This document shows, one piece after another, positions 36,530 through 43,094 of a DNA stretch of 64,000 nucleotides (its first letter is position 1; every line of letters starts with the position of its first letter). The translations under genes were made by a program, and so were the position numbers. Origin of the DNA: a bacterium (GTDB taxonomy: Bacteria > Auribacterota > UBA3054); contig JAFZXZ010000032.1 of the NCBI GenBank assembly GCA_017616555.1, positions 179,862 through 243,861 on the forward strand, written 5' to 3'. The notes under the pieces are model-generated. The model worked only from the letters and a program-made list of their open reading frames with translations. It had not been told where the DNA came from and ran no database searches.

Positions 36530-39500
36530 ATGGCGGAAAAAGCAAAGAAGAAAAGCACGGCCAAAGAGGTCATAGCGTACCTTGTGTGCGGCGTCCTGAC
36601 AACCGTTGTCAACGTGGCGGTTTACCACATCCTTTACAAGTTGGGATGCGGGGTGACGACTTCTGGCGTCATCTCAGTGATCTGCGCCAAGATCTTCGCC
36701 TATCTTTCCAACAAGCTTTTCGTTTTCAATTCCAAATGCGAAAACAAAAAGGAGCTCGGGAAAGAAGTCTGGCGCTTCGTACTGGCCAGAGGCCTTTCCG
36801 GCGTCCTGGACGTAGGGCTCACCACATTTTTCGCCTGGATAATCCCTAAGAATTACGAACTGGCGCTTTCTCTGGGCGGCTGCTTCTTTGTGTTCAGGAT
36901 CGTGTCGCCCGGCGTGGCGGCGAAATACATAACCCAGCCCATAGTGATAGTAGTCAATTATGTTCTGGGCAAGAGCTACGTTTTCAAGGGAAAGGAAGCA
37001 AAGACGGAGAATGCCGAAGCTTCTGAGGAAGTTCAGGAAGAGGAAATCGGAATAGAGGACAAAGAGAGCAGGCCTTTCCATACTTTCCTGATGTTAACGA
37101 TGGATTTCTTCCAGGAACAATTTTCCCGCCTTTATTCTTTCCTTTTCTCTTCCGACGAGGAGGATGGTGAGGACGCCGGCATCAACAAAGAGACTTTCTG
37201 GGAAAAATTCCTTTCTTTTATTGGCTTCTTCAGAGTTTTTGAGATCATAGATTGGGTGGCTTCACTTTTTGGAAAGAAAAAGTCCGAGGAGTATTATGAC
37301 GGTTCCTCCGGTATTTATAGCGAATCCGGACATGATGACGGTCAGGACGACACGTTTGCAGGCTCTTCTCTGAAGAGGGAGGCTATCAGTGCGAAGGGAC
37401 GAATGATCGTCAAAGTCTCAACTTACGCTCTGACTTTTTTGGTGACTATAGTTTTGATCGTTGCGTTCTGGAAGATCTCCAAGGGAATGTACCGCAGCTT
37501 CAATATGAACCAGGATCATATTTTCCGTCAGGCCCATATGTTCGAAAGTTGGCGCGACCTATTCTTCGACGAGTCCGGCGCGCGCTACGGTTCGCTTTTC
37601 GGAGCGGCCCAGATAGCCTACGCCTGGGTCTGCTCAAAGATAAATTACGCCAGGCTGGTTTCTCCCAACCAGTATGCCATGATGTCCTGCCTGGTCTCCG
37701 CAATATGCCTCTTTATCCTGGCTTTTTCCCAGACCGTGATCAGGATGCTGACAGCTTCGACGCTCATGACGTTGGGGCTTGTCTTCCTGTTGGCCGGCAG
37801 AAATCTTCTGCAGCTGGACGGCGGGCTTTTTGCGCTTCAGCTTTTGCTTCTGCTCCTGATCCTAACCACCTACCGGGCGACTGTCAGCGGCTACAGGGGA
37901 GGCTATAAATATTTTCTTATCCGCTGTCTTCTCATTTCGCTTCTGGCCGGGATGCCGGGGACGATGCCTGTCTTTGCTTTCATTTGCCTGGTCATGATCA
38001 CGCTGACTCAAGCAGTTGGCATTATCTGGAACGCTAGGAAAAAAGGATTTGGCGATTTTGTTTTCCTTGCGCTAAGCCGTTTCCTGCCACTTGCCCTGCC
38101 GATTGCCTTGCTTTGGTTTTTCTGCGGCGGGCTGGATCCTCTGAAGTATGACATTGGGGGCGATTTCTGGATCATATCATCGCCCAACCCCATAACTGTT
38201 TCGCCTTTCCTTGCGCGCACGGGTCTTCTCTGCACTGCAGCTTGTATTCTTGGCGCTCTTTTAATGTTTTTGTCGGATCTCAAACGCTGCGGGCTTTACT
38301 GCGTCCTGACAAGCGTCTTTTTCTATTTCTATCTGAGGATAGTCAAACTCGATCCCGGAACGATTGGCTACGCTTCGACGGTCTTTCTTTCAATGATCAT
38401 AGGTGCAGGCGGCATGCTTTGCGGCCAACTCCTTTCTTTGCTTTCAAGATTTTTGTGCCGCTTGTTATCCGCACCCAGGCTGCGGCCTCTGTTTGCCTCG
38501 CTGATAGTTCTGCCATTCATACTATATTTGCTAACAGCCAAAAGTTCCGGCTTTGAATCCGAGGCAAGCGATCTTTCCGAGATCACTGACAGGATCTGCA
38601 AATGCTTGGACGATTCTGTGAACGGTTTCAAAGAAGGTGATGTGCTTATTTTTCCCAAGTTGTCAAAAACCGAGGAGGTTGGCACGCCCCTTTATGATGT
38701 TCTGAATTATGAAAACAGAAGAAAAGCGGCGCGCAATTGGAAGATTCTGGAAGATTATGATTTTTCTTCGGTCAATGCAAAAGGTTATGCCTGGTGGGTA
38801 ATTGGGCTTGACAGTTCCGCAGAATTTGGCCCTGTCGGAGACATCTGCGACATCAAGGTCGCCAATGAACGGATTGCCCTGATAAAATCTAGCGTTCTGA
38901 TCCATTCAGCTCAGCAGCTGGCCGCAATGTATCTTGCGGTTTTAAACTGCGTGGATAGTCCATGGAGTCGGGAGGGCAGAGACGAAATTTGTTCGCAGCT
39001 TGCGCTTCTGCCGTTTGTTTCGCCAGACGATCTTTCATACGCAAGCTTGTTGAGGTCATACCGTCAGGGACTGATCAAAGGCTGTAAGCTCATGGAGACT
39101 GACGAACTGATGAAAAGCGGCAACTTTGCCGCCAGATGGGCCTGCGCTGCCAGAAAAAAAGATTTGAAGAGCGCTCAGCGCTATATGGATCTCACGGTCA
39201 AAGAACTTCCAGATATTGTCTTCCTATTAGAAGCTTACCGCAATTTTGGCGGAGATTTGAAGTTCATTCCGCCTTTGGAACTCGTAAACCGTTATGGGCT
39301 TTCGGAAGCAAATTTCAAGATCTTTACCGCGCTGTTTGACAAGATCTATCGCGATAGTCCCGCAAACGTTGTGTATTTTAACGAATGGGCCAATATCAAA
39401 CGCGGTTTGGCCGACGAAAGCGAAAAGGATCTCAATGAAGCTTACAAAGAGCGCTTCGCTGTCAAAAAGGAACTGGCAACGACAATAACCAATGATCTTC

Positions 39501-40129
39501 CTAGGGAAGCGGTTTATGAAGAGCCCGGAGAATGCTTGCAGAACCGCTATTTTGAGAAAGGGTTGGGTGTTTGGCGCTCGGAATCTGTAAAGGGCGAAAA
39601 ATTGCCTTCTACCTTCCTCTCCACTCCGGATCTTTGGCTGCTGGCTCAAGGCGAACCGGGAGGCCGGGCCGGAGTGGCGCAGCGTATTGAATTGGACAAA
39701 GGAATATATTTAGGGCAGGCTTATGCCAGAATCCCGGAGGGCAGGGAAGCTCCGGATGAGATCTCACTGAAATTCCGCGCTCAAAGTCTCGACGCGCCGA
39801 CCTATGCCGTCAAATGGAGAGCAGGGAGTCAATGGACTCTGGGCTATATCGTGGTGACCAACGAAGCCGATTGCCGTGCGATCTTCTACTGCGGGAGCGA
39901 AAATGTTGCGAGTCCAGGCTCCGTAGAATTTACGGATATTAGTTTCCATCGTATCGACGGGGAGCTCGAAGAGTACTTCAAGAATTCTCCAATCGGCTGG
40001 AGACTACGCCGCGAGAACGATGCTGTGGCCCTTCAGCTTGAAGAAAACGAGCTTGAACTCTTACGGCAAAAGGTTCTTACGCCGGAAGAGAGTCAGGGCG
40101 AAGAGGGGACTATTGACACTGAACACTAG
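36530..40129 (+). CDS. GtrA-domain fusion: large polytopic membrane protein with GT-C-like part
   Basis: A 1199-residue protein with an unusual layout. Residues about 12-155 form a GtrA domain (four helices, YLVCGVLTTVVNVAVYHIL), a family linked to flipping of lipid-linked sugars. An acidic linker (about 155-290) follows, then about ten helices (about 296-680). The first large loop of that part holds NMNQDHIFRQ (D329), reminiscent of the catalytic acidic loop of GT-C glycosyltransferases. A soluble helical region (about 690-1010) and a beta-rich, carbohydrate-binding-like C-domain (about 1015-1160) complete it. This suggests one polypeptide that presents and transfers a sugar in envelope glycan synthesis; that is inference. 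Confidence 0.8.
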   Translation: MAEKAKKKSTAKEVIAYLVCGVLTTVVNVAVYHILYKLGCGVTTSGVISVICAKIFAYLSNKLFVFNSKCENKKELGKEVWRFVLARGLSGVLDVGLTTFFAWIIPKNYELALSLGGCFFVFRIVSPGVAAKYITQPIVIVVNYVLGKSYVFKGKEAKTENAEASEEVQEEEIGIEDKESRPFHTFLMLTMDFFQEQFSRLYSFLFSSDEEDGEDAGINKETFWEKFLSFIGFFRVFEIIDWVASLFGKKKSEEYYDGSSGIYSESGHDDGQDDTFAGSSLKREAISAKGRMIVKVSTYALTFLVTIVLIVAFWKISKGMYRSFNMNQDHIFRQAHMFESWRDLFFDESGARYGSLFGAAQIAYAWVCSKINYARLVSPNQYAMMSCLVSAICLFILAFSQTVIRMLTASTLMTLGLVFLLAGRNLLQLDGGLFALQLLLLLLILTTYRATVSGYRGGYKYFLIRCLLISLLAGMPGTMPVFAFICLVMITLTQAVGIIWNARKKGFGDFVFLALSRFLPLALPIALLWFFCGGLDPLKYDIGGDFWIISSPNPITVSPFLARTGLLCTAACILGALLMFLSDLKRCGLYCVLTSVFFYFYLRIVKLDPGTIGYASTVFLSMIIGAGGMLCGQLLSLLSRFLCRLLSAPRLRPLFASLIVLPFILYLLTAKSSGFESEASDLSEITDRICKCLDDSVNGFKEGDVLIFPKLSKTEEVGTPLYDVLNYENRRKAARNWKILEDYDFSSVNAKGYAWWVIGLDSSAEFGPVGDICDIKVANERIALIKSSVLIHSAQQLAAMYLAVLNCVDSPWSREGRDEICSQLALLPFVSPDDLSYASLLRSYRQGLIKGCKLMETDELMKSGNFAARWACAARKKDLKSAQRYMDLTVKELPDIVFLLEAYRNFGGDLKFIPPLELVNRYGLSEANFKIFTALFDKIYRDSPANVVYFNEWANIKRGLADESEKDLNEAYKERFAVKKELATTITNDLPREAVYEEPGECLQNRYFEKGLGVWRSESVKGEKLPSTFLSTPDLWLLAQGEPGGRAGVAQRIELDKGIYLGQAYARIPEGREAPDEISLKFRAQSLDAPTYAVKWRAGSQWTLGYIVVTNEADCRAIFYCGSENVASPGSVEFTDISFHRIDGELEEYFKNSPIGWRLRRENDAVALQLEENELELLRQKVLTPEESQGEEGTIDTEH

Positions 40130-40345: not shown

Positions 40346-40987
40346 ATGAAAGCTACTAAAATCATCGTTGCTTCTTTACTCGTCATCGCTGCTATCGCTT
40401 ACGCTGCCAAGACCCCGCAGGTCTTCTGCGAAGGTTTGGAAGGTTTCTCTAAACCCGTCGTGACCCCGGTCGTCACCGTCGATGAAACCGGCTGCACCAT
40501 CGTTGACTTCGGCACCCAGCTGGGTGACAAAGGCCAGGTCCAGTTCACCACCGCCAACGGCAACATCTTCGTGAAAGCCGCTGCTGGTAAAGCCATCGCC
40601 CAGAAAGGCGGCAAGGTCACCGGCACGATCAACGGCGTGGAAGCTGGCTTCAACGGCGTCGCTCTTAAGCTGAAAGGCATCACCGTCGGCACCGTCGTCG
40701 CCGCTGGTTTGAAGTCCGCTCAGGTTGCCAATATCACCGGCAGCGTCGATGCTGGTAACTTCGCCAAGGGCACGGCCGTCAAGGCCACCACGAAGGTCGA
40801 AGGCACCTTCAAAGGCGTCTTCAAGAGCATCCAGGCTGGTCAGTTCGGCGAAGTCGAAGGCACTGGCATCACGACCCCCAAGAAGGTCGCCTTCAAAGCC
40901 AAACAGGCTGGCGGCACCATCGTTGTCACTCCTGGTCTGGTCTACACCGCCAAGAACGTGAACGTGGTCAACCCCGTGACCGAATAA
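40346..40987 (+). CDS. Small secreted protein of unknown function, probably abundant
   Basis: Start placed at the ATG at 40346 (MKATKIIVASLLVIAAIAYA) because GGAGA lies upstream and a signal peptide follows. The 213-residue product is rich in Gly, Ala, Val, Thr and Lys, with a repeating pattern of short beta segments and G-turns (GTINGVEAGFNGV, GSVDAGNFAKG, GTFKGVFKSIQAG), suggesting a beta-helix or beta-roll. Codon use is strongly biased to GTC, ACC, GGC and AAG, like the ribosomal protein genes, implying high expression. It has its own strong promoter and terminator and stands alone. A surface, structural or stress role is possible, but none is shown. Confidence 0.85.
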   Translation: MKATKIIVASLLVIAAIAYAAKTPQVFCEGLEGFSKPVVTPVVTVDETGCTIVDFGTQLGDKGQVQFTTANGNIFVKAAAGKAIAQKGGKVTGTINGVEAGFNGVALKLKGITVGTVVAAGLKSAQVANITGSVDAGNFAKGTAVKATTKVEGTFKGVFKSIQAGQFGEVEGTGITTPKKVAFKAKQAGGTIVVTPGLVYTAKNVNVVNPVTE

Positions 40988-41014: not shown

Positions 41015-41046
41015 AAGAGACCCGCGCAAGCGGGTCTCTTTTTTTA
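41015..41046 (+). terminator. Terminator of the small secreted protein gene
   Basis: An 11-bp stem (aagagacccgc / gcgggtctctt) with a GCAA loop and a T-run. Confidence 0.92.
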
Positions 41047-41070
41047 CCTACAAAAAAAGGCCTTGGGATT

Positions 41071-41079
41071 TGCTACAAT
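41071..41079 (+). promoter_or_regulatory. Extended -10 promoter of the QueE-like gene and radA
   Basis: TGC-TACAAT, 25 nt before the start codon, with no clear -35 box. Confidence 0.6.
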
Positions 41080-41104
41080 AGAATAAAATAAAAGAGAGTT
41101 TCCT

Positions 41105-41683
41105 ATGAAAATAAAAGATATAAAGGAAGGGCTAATCGACTCCGGAACGCTCATCGGAATGCCGGCGCTTTTCCTCGCTTTGTCGGGAACTGACGATGAG
41201 GGAATGGAAAAAGGCGTGGATGAGCTCTTGGAAGCCGTTAAAAACAGTTTTAAGCGTTACGTTGTCATAGCTGGCGGGGATATAGCTGGCCAAGAGGGGG
41301 AGCTGAAGGTCCTTTTGTCCGGCATAGAGGATCTCTACTGCCATACCGTAATTGAAAGCGACGGATCCGAAATGCTCGATCTTGACGCCGACCTTTATTC
41401 TCTTTCTCTGAAGCCGCGCGACATTTGGCCGGTTGAAAACATAAACGCTTATGTTTCCGCCGGAAGAATAGTGGAACTGAAAATATACCTTGAGGATGAG
41501 ATAGACCTTAGGGAAACGCTCATAGCTCTTTCCAATCACAATGTGCCGCGCTCGGCGATCTTTTTTCTGCCGGCCGGAGACGATCTGGAAAGCTATCGCG
41601 AGAACGCGGTCTTCCTTTCTGAAGAATGCCTGAAATACGGATTCCGTCTGGGCGAACGCTTAAGATTTACTTTGGGAAAATAA
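41105..41683 (+). CDS. QueE-like radical-SAM pseudoenzyme lacking Fe-S cysteines
   Basis: A 192-residue protein that follows the layout of 7-carboxy-7-deazaguanine synthase (QueE) from end to end. EGLIDSGTLIGMPALFLALSG (from about residue 8) matches QueE's opening up to the point where QueE has the CxxxCxxC cluster motif. Here the residues are G28-T29-D30-D31-E32-G33 with no cysteine. VVIAGGD (53-59) matches the SAM-binding GGE motif, LYSLSLKP the SPK region, and the C-terminus (LPAGDDLESY...CLKYGFRLGERLRFTLG) the family end. Without the cluster it cannot do radical chemistry, so a regulatory or structural role is likely. It ends one base before radA. Confidence 0.7.
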   Translation: MKIKDIKEGLIDSGTLIGMPALFLALSGTDDEGMEKGVDELLEAVKNSFKRYVVIAGGDIAGQEGELKVLLSGIEDLYCHTVIESDGSEMLDLDADLYSLSLKPRDIWPVENINAYVSAGRIVELKIYLEDEIDLRETLIALSNHNVPRSAIFFLPAGDDLESYRENAVFLSEECLKYGFRLGERLRFTLGK

Positions 41684-41684
41684 G

Positions 41685-43094
41685 ATGGCGAAAGCGCAAA
41701 AAATATACGTCTGCCAGGAGTGCGGAGCGAAAAGCCCAAAATGGCTTGGTCAGTGCCCAAGTTGCGAAGCCTGGAACACTTTTGTTGAGGAAAAAGTTGA
41801 AGAGAACGCGACTACCCCCAATATTGTGATCTCCAGCCCGGCCCAGCCTCTTATGTCCGTTGTGTCTGCGGGTGACAAAAGGCTTCCCACCGAGATAAGC
41901 GAATTCGACCGCATCTGCGGAGGCGGCCTGGTGGCCGGACAAGTGCTGTTGGTGGGCGGCGACCCGGGAATCGGCAAGTCGACGCTGCTTCTGCAGATCG
42001 CGGAAGCCTTGGCCAAACCGGGCAGGGAAGTGCTCTACGTTTCCGGCGAGGAATCCCAGGCGCAGGCCAAGATGAGGGCCGAGCGCCTCAACATCAAGAA
42101 TCCCGACATCTGGATCATGGCGGAGACGAACCTGGCGGCTTTCCTGCAGGAAGCCAAGAACCGCAAACCGGCCATACTGCTGGTGGACTCCATACAGGTC
42201 ATGTACGATCAGGAGATAGGCAGCGCGCCGGGAAGTGTGGCGCAGGTGAGGGAATGCACGGCCGCGCTCGTCAGGTTCGCCAAGAAGGAAATGATAACGA
42301 CCATAATCGTCGGCCACGTGACGAAATCGGGCGCCATTGCGGGACCCAGGGTAATGGAGCACCTTGTCGATACGGTATTGTATTTTGAAGGCGAACGGCA
42401 CAATATTTACCGCATCTTGAGAAGCGTCAAGAACCGCTATGGCTCGACCGACGAGATAGGCGTTTTCGAGATGACGGGAAAGGGCCTGGTGGAAGTAAAG
42501 AACCCATCTGCGATATTCCTGGCGCAAAGATTGAGCAAGAACAGCGGTTCGGCCGTCGGCACGTCGCTGGAAGGCACCCGCCCAATACTTATGGAAGTCC
42601 AGGCGCTCTGCGCCAAGGCGCCCTATGGAACTCCGGCCAGGAAAGCCCTGGGCTGCGATCCAATGAGGCTTCTTTTGCTTCTGGCGGTCCTGGAAAAACG
42701 CATAGGAATCCCGATCAGCGCACATGACGTTTACGTCAACATCGCCGGCGGTCTGAAGATCGATGAGCCCGGGATGGATCTTGCGCTCCTGGCCGCTGTC
42801 GCATCCTCTTATTTCGACGTCTGCGTGGCGGACGACACCGTTCTGATCGGCGAAGTCGGCTTGGGCGGGGAAGTCCGCGCCGTAAGCCAGATCGAGCGCC
42901 GCGTCATGGAAGCCATAAGACTCGGTTTCAAGCGCTGCGTGATGCCGGCGCACAATCTGAAGAGTTTCAGGGAAAAAGGCAAGTCTGAAGTGGAGTGGAA
43001 CGGCATGACTTTAGTGGGCTGCGCCGACGCGGCCCAGGCCATAAGAGCCGCACTCCCCAATCTTGTTGACAAGCGGGGAAATCATCCCGAATAG
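41685..43094 (+). CDS. radA: DNA repair protein RadA
   Basis: A RecA-like branch-migration helicase of 469 residues. The N-terminal zinc finger uses C10, C13, C24 and C27. Walker A is GDPGIGKSTLLLQ, and the RadA-specific motif appears as KNRYGSTDEIG. The C-terminal Lon-like domain (about 290-460) is complete. It starts one base after the pseudoenzyme gene, which suggests coupled expression. Confidence 0.96.
   Translation: MAKAQKIYVCQECGAKSPKWLGQCPSCEAWNTFVEEKVEENATTPNIVISSPAQPLMSVVSAGDKRLPTEISEFDRICGGGLVAGQVLLVGGDPGIGKSTLLLQIAEALAKPGREVLYVSGEESQAQAKMRAERLNIKNPDIWIMAETNLAAFLQEAKNRKPAILLVDSIQVMYDQEIGSAPGSVAQVRECTAALVRFAKKEMITTIIVGHVTKSGAIAGPRVMEHLVDTVLYFEGERHNIYRILRSVKNRYGSTDEIGVFEMTGKGLVEVKNPSAIFLAQRLSKNSGSAVGTSLEGTRPILMEVQALCAKAPYGTPARKALGCDPMRLLLLLAVLEKRIGIPISAHDVYVNIAGGLKIDEPGMDLALLAAVASSYFDVCVADDTVLIGEVGLGGEVRAVSQIERRVMEAIRLGFKRCVMPAHNLKSFREKGKSEVEWNGMTLVGCADAAQAIRAALPNLVDKRGNHPE

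Follow-up and report, generated by a model that had tools for sequence, protein, structure and literature searches.

A QueE-derived pseudoenzyme without iron-sulfur cysteines is retained upstream of radA in a genus of rumen bacteria

Within a 64,000-nucleotide stretch of an Auribacterota genome (contig JAFZXZ010000032.1; hereafter the window), the forward strand at positions 41105–41683 encodes a 192-residue protein that almost certainly descends from QueE with loss of its iron-sulfur cluster. This protein, which we call pseudo-QueE, is found genus-wide, has a QueE-like predicted fold and contains no Fe-S cysteines. The host bacteria are a rumen group in which the genes for making preQ0, a precursor of a tRNA base, have been lost while pseudo-QueE is retained under strong selection. 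We consider it rather probable, on the sequence evidence below, that pseudo-QueE is a non-catalytic scaffold or regulator, probably acting via protein–protein contacts, that persisted after the route to preQ1 was lost. We infer further that the protein is produced, that contacts with other proteins are how it acts and that its role is older than the loss.

Standard searches do not readily reveal the origin of the protein. No Pfam match was obtained with the 192-residue sequence, NCBIfam returned two weak QueE matches (E = 0.014 and 0.21), a single-sequence search of the PDB returned nothing, and a profile built from pseudo-QueEs only matched no PDB chain. Comparison with genomes of the same order was informative: each of seven genomes, from three other families, yielded one match (E = 3e-5 to 4.5e-14), which was always the QueE gene. 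These seven genes match TIGR03365 at E values of 1e-15 to 1e-22, with CxxxCxxC, GGEP and SPK all intact. When the pseudo-only profile was aligned to 12 true QueEs with hhalign, the probability was 99.6% over 188 columns, in agreement with the relationship to QueE proposed in the initial annotation. Homology at this level lies well outside what chance would give.

Structure prediction points the same way. An AlphaFold2 model computed from a deeper alignment (pseudo-QueEs, the QueEs of the order and phylum, and 50 QueEs from viral contigs) reached a pLDDT of 95.6 and a pTM of 0.90, although this alignment is dominated by true QueEs, which biases the model towards the QueE fold and makes it non-independent evidence. 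Among solved structures, Foldseek matched this model best to QueE from B. subtilis, E. coli and Burkholderia (TM 0.67–0.82), with pyruvate formate-lyase activase also ranking among the top matches, before the Burkholderia QueE (TM 0.66–0.82 for the set). Prediction from the seven pseudo-QueEs alone gave a pLDDT of only 58, and the three best structural matches of that model are all B. subtilis QueE (E = 0.03–0.06). An unrelated fold had been named as the result that would speak against QueE ancestry; the fold predicted here is QueE-like.

In a maximum-likelihood tree, the pseudo-QueEs form one clade (support 100/100) that is sister to the QueEs of the order (98/91). The stem of the clade is long, at 1.44 changes per column, and change is slower within it. 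Because the clade is sister to the order's QueEs and the genes occupy the same position relative to radA, the tree and gene order indicate that pseudo-queE is the orthologue, changed in place at the ancestral site upstream of radA, and no stray paralogue.

The gene is present in seven of the eight genomes of the genus, at 53–100% identity; in the eighth (G004), the contig begins inside radA, so that the gene would fall in the gap and its presence cannot be assessed. No match to pseudo-QueE was found in any other order of the phylum, and no independent cysteine-free QueE was matched among the 44 genomes of the phylum that were searched, or among plasmids or phages. A contig scan of genomes matched only the same ruminant-gut group (MAGs from sheep, yak and water buffalo gut). 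No report of a cysteine-free QueE was found in a literature search that lacked most subscription journals. We regard pseudo-QueE as a member of a known family that became a pseudoenzyme and was fixed in the genus after pathway loss.

Alignment with true QueEs defines what was lost from the active site. The 14-residue segment RVAGCNLxCxWCDT of the order's true QueEs is missing from all seven pseudo-QueEs (the window protein and six homologues), leaving a junction between residues 24 and 25 (41171–41182, forward strand) at which every pseudo-QueE row has a gap. E. coli residues R27, C31, C35, C38 and T40 all map inside the missing loop. The disappearance of CxxxCxxC that was first noted in the window therefore applies to all seven sequences, and since it is common to the whole genus it is old, not a recent decay. 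In E. coli QueE, Q13, E15 and R27 contact the substrate and T40 the Mg ion (PMC11142719). The columns of Q13 and E15 contain I and S/K in the pseudo-QueEs, and the window protein has IDSG in place of QGEG (41135–41146, forward strand). The SAM motif, GGEP in QueE, is degenerate (41273–41284, forward strand): it is GGDI in the window, as the earlier reading of GGD for GGE had it, but the relatives, to which that reading does not extend, have GG-M, GG-L, GG-V or GE-L. Neither SPK nor the C-terminal QTLLWN remains, and the ribose-motif glutamate E84 is retained. With the [4Fe-4S] loop, the substrate arginine, the Mg site and the SAM and substrate motifs lost, pseudo-QueE is, as judged from the alignment, incapable of radical-SAM chemistry.

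These losses also bear on the possibility that pseudo-QueE kept only the binding capacity of QueE and serves as a sensor of SAM, of a pterin or of a 7-deazaguanine. Retention of the barrel and of E84 would suit such a sensor, but Q13, E15 and R27 are gone and the degenerate GGEP varies between species, and we regard this reading as very unlikely. The nucleobase or SAM sensor suggested in the initial annotation is not upheld for the same reason, the residues that contact the substrate and the SAM-binding GGE being lost or variable.

The gene nevertheless behaves as a functional coding sequence. Pairwise dN/dS is about 0.13–0.2 in most pairs with unsaturated dS, rising to 0.3 for G002 versus the G005–G007 group; the corresponding values are 0.09–0.24 for recN, which is thus similar, 0.04–0.11 for radA (a range that leaves out G006) and 0.09–0.12 for true QueE in genus g3. 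The frame is open in all seven genomes, with no breaks. Pseudo-queE is thus, by these substitution patterns, under purifying selection and not decaying. We also considered that it might be a leader frame for radA transcription or translation, or a slowly decaying remnant, since it is the first gene past a conserved promoter-like element and lies directly 5' of radA. The seven open frames, the conserved amino acids and the near-saturated synonymous sites, together with a dN/dS of about 0.13–0.2, disfavor decay, a leader-only role and an RNA element alike, and we give this explanation very little weight.

The promoter-like element is a putative extended -10 sequence, TTTGCTACAAT (41069–41079, forward strand), which has its sole exact match in the whole window at this site and is kept in six of seven genus members. 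A strict sigma-70 scan found no promoter upstream of pseudo-queE. The promoter of its own that had been attributed to the gene is plausible, with conservation of the extended -10 element in its favor and the empty scan against it. Further upstream, GAGACCCGCGCAAGCGGGTCTC followed by a T run (41017–41046, forward strand) is, as read from the sequence, a likely intrinsic terminator of the preceding gene; the hairpin is also kept in G001, G002 and G003, and a simple terminator scan of the window did not list it. In these three genomes, the ATG of pseudo-queE lies 7 nt past the TACAAT hexamer (the region corresponding to 41069–41107 in the window), and their pseudo-queE transcripts may be leaderless. 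The window has extra bases between TACAAT and the ATG, giving a short 5' leader.

Two genes upstream were also noted. The open reading frame at 40346–40987 encodes a predicted secreted protein of ~213 residues with a repetitive, low-complexity composition and no Pfam match; it is kept upstream of pseudo-queE in G001, G002 and G003 and not in G005–G007. A predicted membrane protein of 1199 residues (36530–40129), whose N-terminus resembles a GtrA-type domain by eye, shows 73–78% identity in close relatives. Separately, positions 2500–10500 of L062 (G005) share ~8 kb, pseudo-queE included, with L063 (G007) at 98–100% identity, and the flanks of this tract are 72–93% identical between the two species. 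The pattern indicates recent recombination, with an end just inside radA.

The pathway to which QueE belongs is missing as well. No QueE, QueC or QueF proper was found in the eight genus genomes, some of which are incomplete, so the search for a normal QueE that the initial annotation had called for produced none. Genus matches to the QueC and QueF profiles are only weak (E about 1e-4 to 1e-7) and apparently represent other ATP pyrophosphatases and FolE; sister families match QueC at 1e-71 to 1e-78, and four of their genomes match QueF at 1e-23 to 1e-26. TGT and QueA are present in all eight genus genomes, QueH in seven and the QPTR/COG1738 transporter in five; among the relatives tested, QPTR/COG1738 was absent save for one weak match in G010. 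Under published gene-content rules for salvage profiles (PMC11130926, PMC11570991), this content corresponds to preQ1 salvage. The genus appears, as far as the gene content of partly incomplete genomes indicates, to have switched from synthesis to preQ1 salvage.

PTPS-family genes remain in the genus, and those read (L062–L064, L055–L057) encode E..HGH where QueD has a cysteine. Assignment of these genes as QueD is doubtful given this replacement. A second set of PTPS genes adjoins a FolE-like gene, which suggests a role in the folate pathway.

Because pseudo-QueE is kept under strong selection although the catalytic loop and the pathway are gone, we infer that it has a non-catalytic job, and whatever selection keeps it must concern a function other than queuosine synthesis. 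The distribution of conserved residues offers some indication of what kind. The pseudo-QueEs have 72 invariant positions, and their longest invariant block, EDEIDLRET (41492–41518, forward strand), is not conserved in QueE; an invariant run of at least nine arose in 115 of 10,000 shuffles and is thus improbable by chance. The block runs from the last part of predicted strand 5 into the helix that follows, and in the predicted model it begins on the old active-site face, where it is the one strong block. True QueE has 13 of 30 positions invariant at the barrel mouth and 5 of 30 on the opposite face; in the pseudo-QueEs the counts are 9 of 30 and 16 of 30, a shift (Fisher p = 0.03) based on 6–7 sequences and on strand ends taken from a model. 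This shift of the conserved face gives modest support, on the modeled structure, to a protein-binding scaffold over a ligand pocket. Another reading of the same block is that pseudo-QueE took up a new enzymatic or ligand-binding activity in a cluster-free barrel, the acidic EDEIDLRE forming its new ligand or metal site. Nine consecutive invariant residues that begin where strand 5 ends, on the side of the former active site in the model, would fit, but elsewhere on that side the loops show no special conservation (9/30 with the block counted) and no known family was matched; we judge this reading improbable.

The next gene, radA (41685–43094, forward strand), follows after a gap of 1 nt, as the initial annotation correctly described for an intact frame ending one base before it, and the two genes are probably cotranscribed. 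The gap is 1–3 nt in the other genus members where it can be read. This tight adjacency and the probable shared transcript raise the possibility that pseudo-QueE partners or regulates RadA, its QueE fold binding either RadA or a signal for RadA. Five genomes from other families in the order, however, show the same arrangement with an intact queE: G008, G010, G011, G012 and G013, with gaps of 113, 248, 1, 464 and 485 nt; in G014 radA lies elsewhere, and in G009 queE is the last gene before the contig stops. Elsewhere in the phylum, in other orders, the neighbor of queE is queC or a queD-like gene instead of radA. Since these five genomes combine the adjacency with an intact queE, it was inherited from before the cluster loss, and the radA neighbor is no evidence of a new function with RadA; adjacency is indeed conserved in the genus members read, but it is not specific to the pseudoenzyme. 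Nor is the 1-nt spacing special: G011 has it beside an intact queE, and the window contains several further gene pairs that are equally tight. A RadA partner is accordingly an unlikely explanation. Of the original suggestion of a repurposed protein, the QueE-derived pseudoenzyme is supported, and the tie to RadA and the nucleobase or SAM sensing are not.

A second function of QueE is already known. In E. coli, the QueE R27A variant makes no Q and still blocks division (PMC11142719), a precedent for pseudo-QueE blocking cell division in the same way after Q synthesis was lost. The E. coli activity requires the E45–W67 insert together with C31 and C35 (PMC11142719); pseudo-QueE has no such cysteines, and only ~11 residues are available where the insert would sit, the predicted model leaving no room for it between strand 20–26 and helix 38–48. 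We find this alternative barely credible.

Our preferred reading, a non-catalytic QueE scaffold or regulator, is as follows. In the family, the route to preQ1 (QueC, QueF and QueE activity) was, by gene content, dropped and replaced by preQ1 import (QPTR, TGT, QueA, QueH); QueE lost its Fe-S loop and its SAM and substrate motifs, the barrel fold being kept under purifying selection. The retained role could be a second function already present in true QueE that outlived catalysis. More tentatively, and with slightly less confidence than an even chance, we propose that the ancestor's QueE had an important non-catalytic function and that loss of precursor synthesis stripped the enzyme, genus-wide, to a cluster-free radical-SAM scaffold. 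The cluster is what defines radical-SAM proteins; here the cluster loop is gone and the rest has been maintained throughout the history of the genus. A second role of QueE would be directly testable in this genus without interference from Q synthesis. Genome surveys that rely on fold or domain could also mistakenly attribute preQ0 synthesis to these bacteria.

Compared with QueE, 7-carboxy-7-deazaguanine synthase (PDB 6nhl, 5tgs/5th5 and 4njg), pseudo-QueE has the same predicted fold and a full-length profile alignment, but it lacks the [4Fe-4S] cysteines, the Mg site and the arginine that contacts the substrate, and its SAM motif is degenerate. The QueE genes of sister families lie in the same position upstream of radA; in genomes with pseudo-QueE, neither QueC nor QueF proper was found. 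The E. coli moonlighting regulator (PMC11142719) resembles our proposal in being a QueE fold with a role besides Q synthesis, as proposed for pseudo-QueE, whereas the E. coli protein is still an enzyme and exerts its division role via an insert and cysteines, both absent here. The repurposed QueC scaffolds QatC and Cap9 (PMC13329287) likewise represent a protein of the 7-deazaguanine pathway put to another use; these are catalytic members of the QueC family, whereas pseudo-QueE belongs to the QueE family and is apparently without catalysis.
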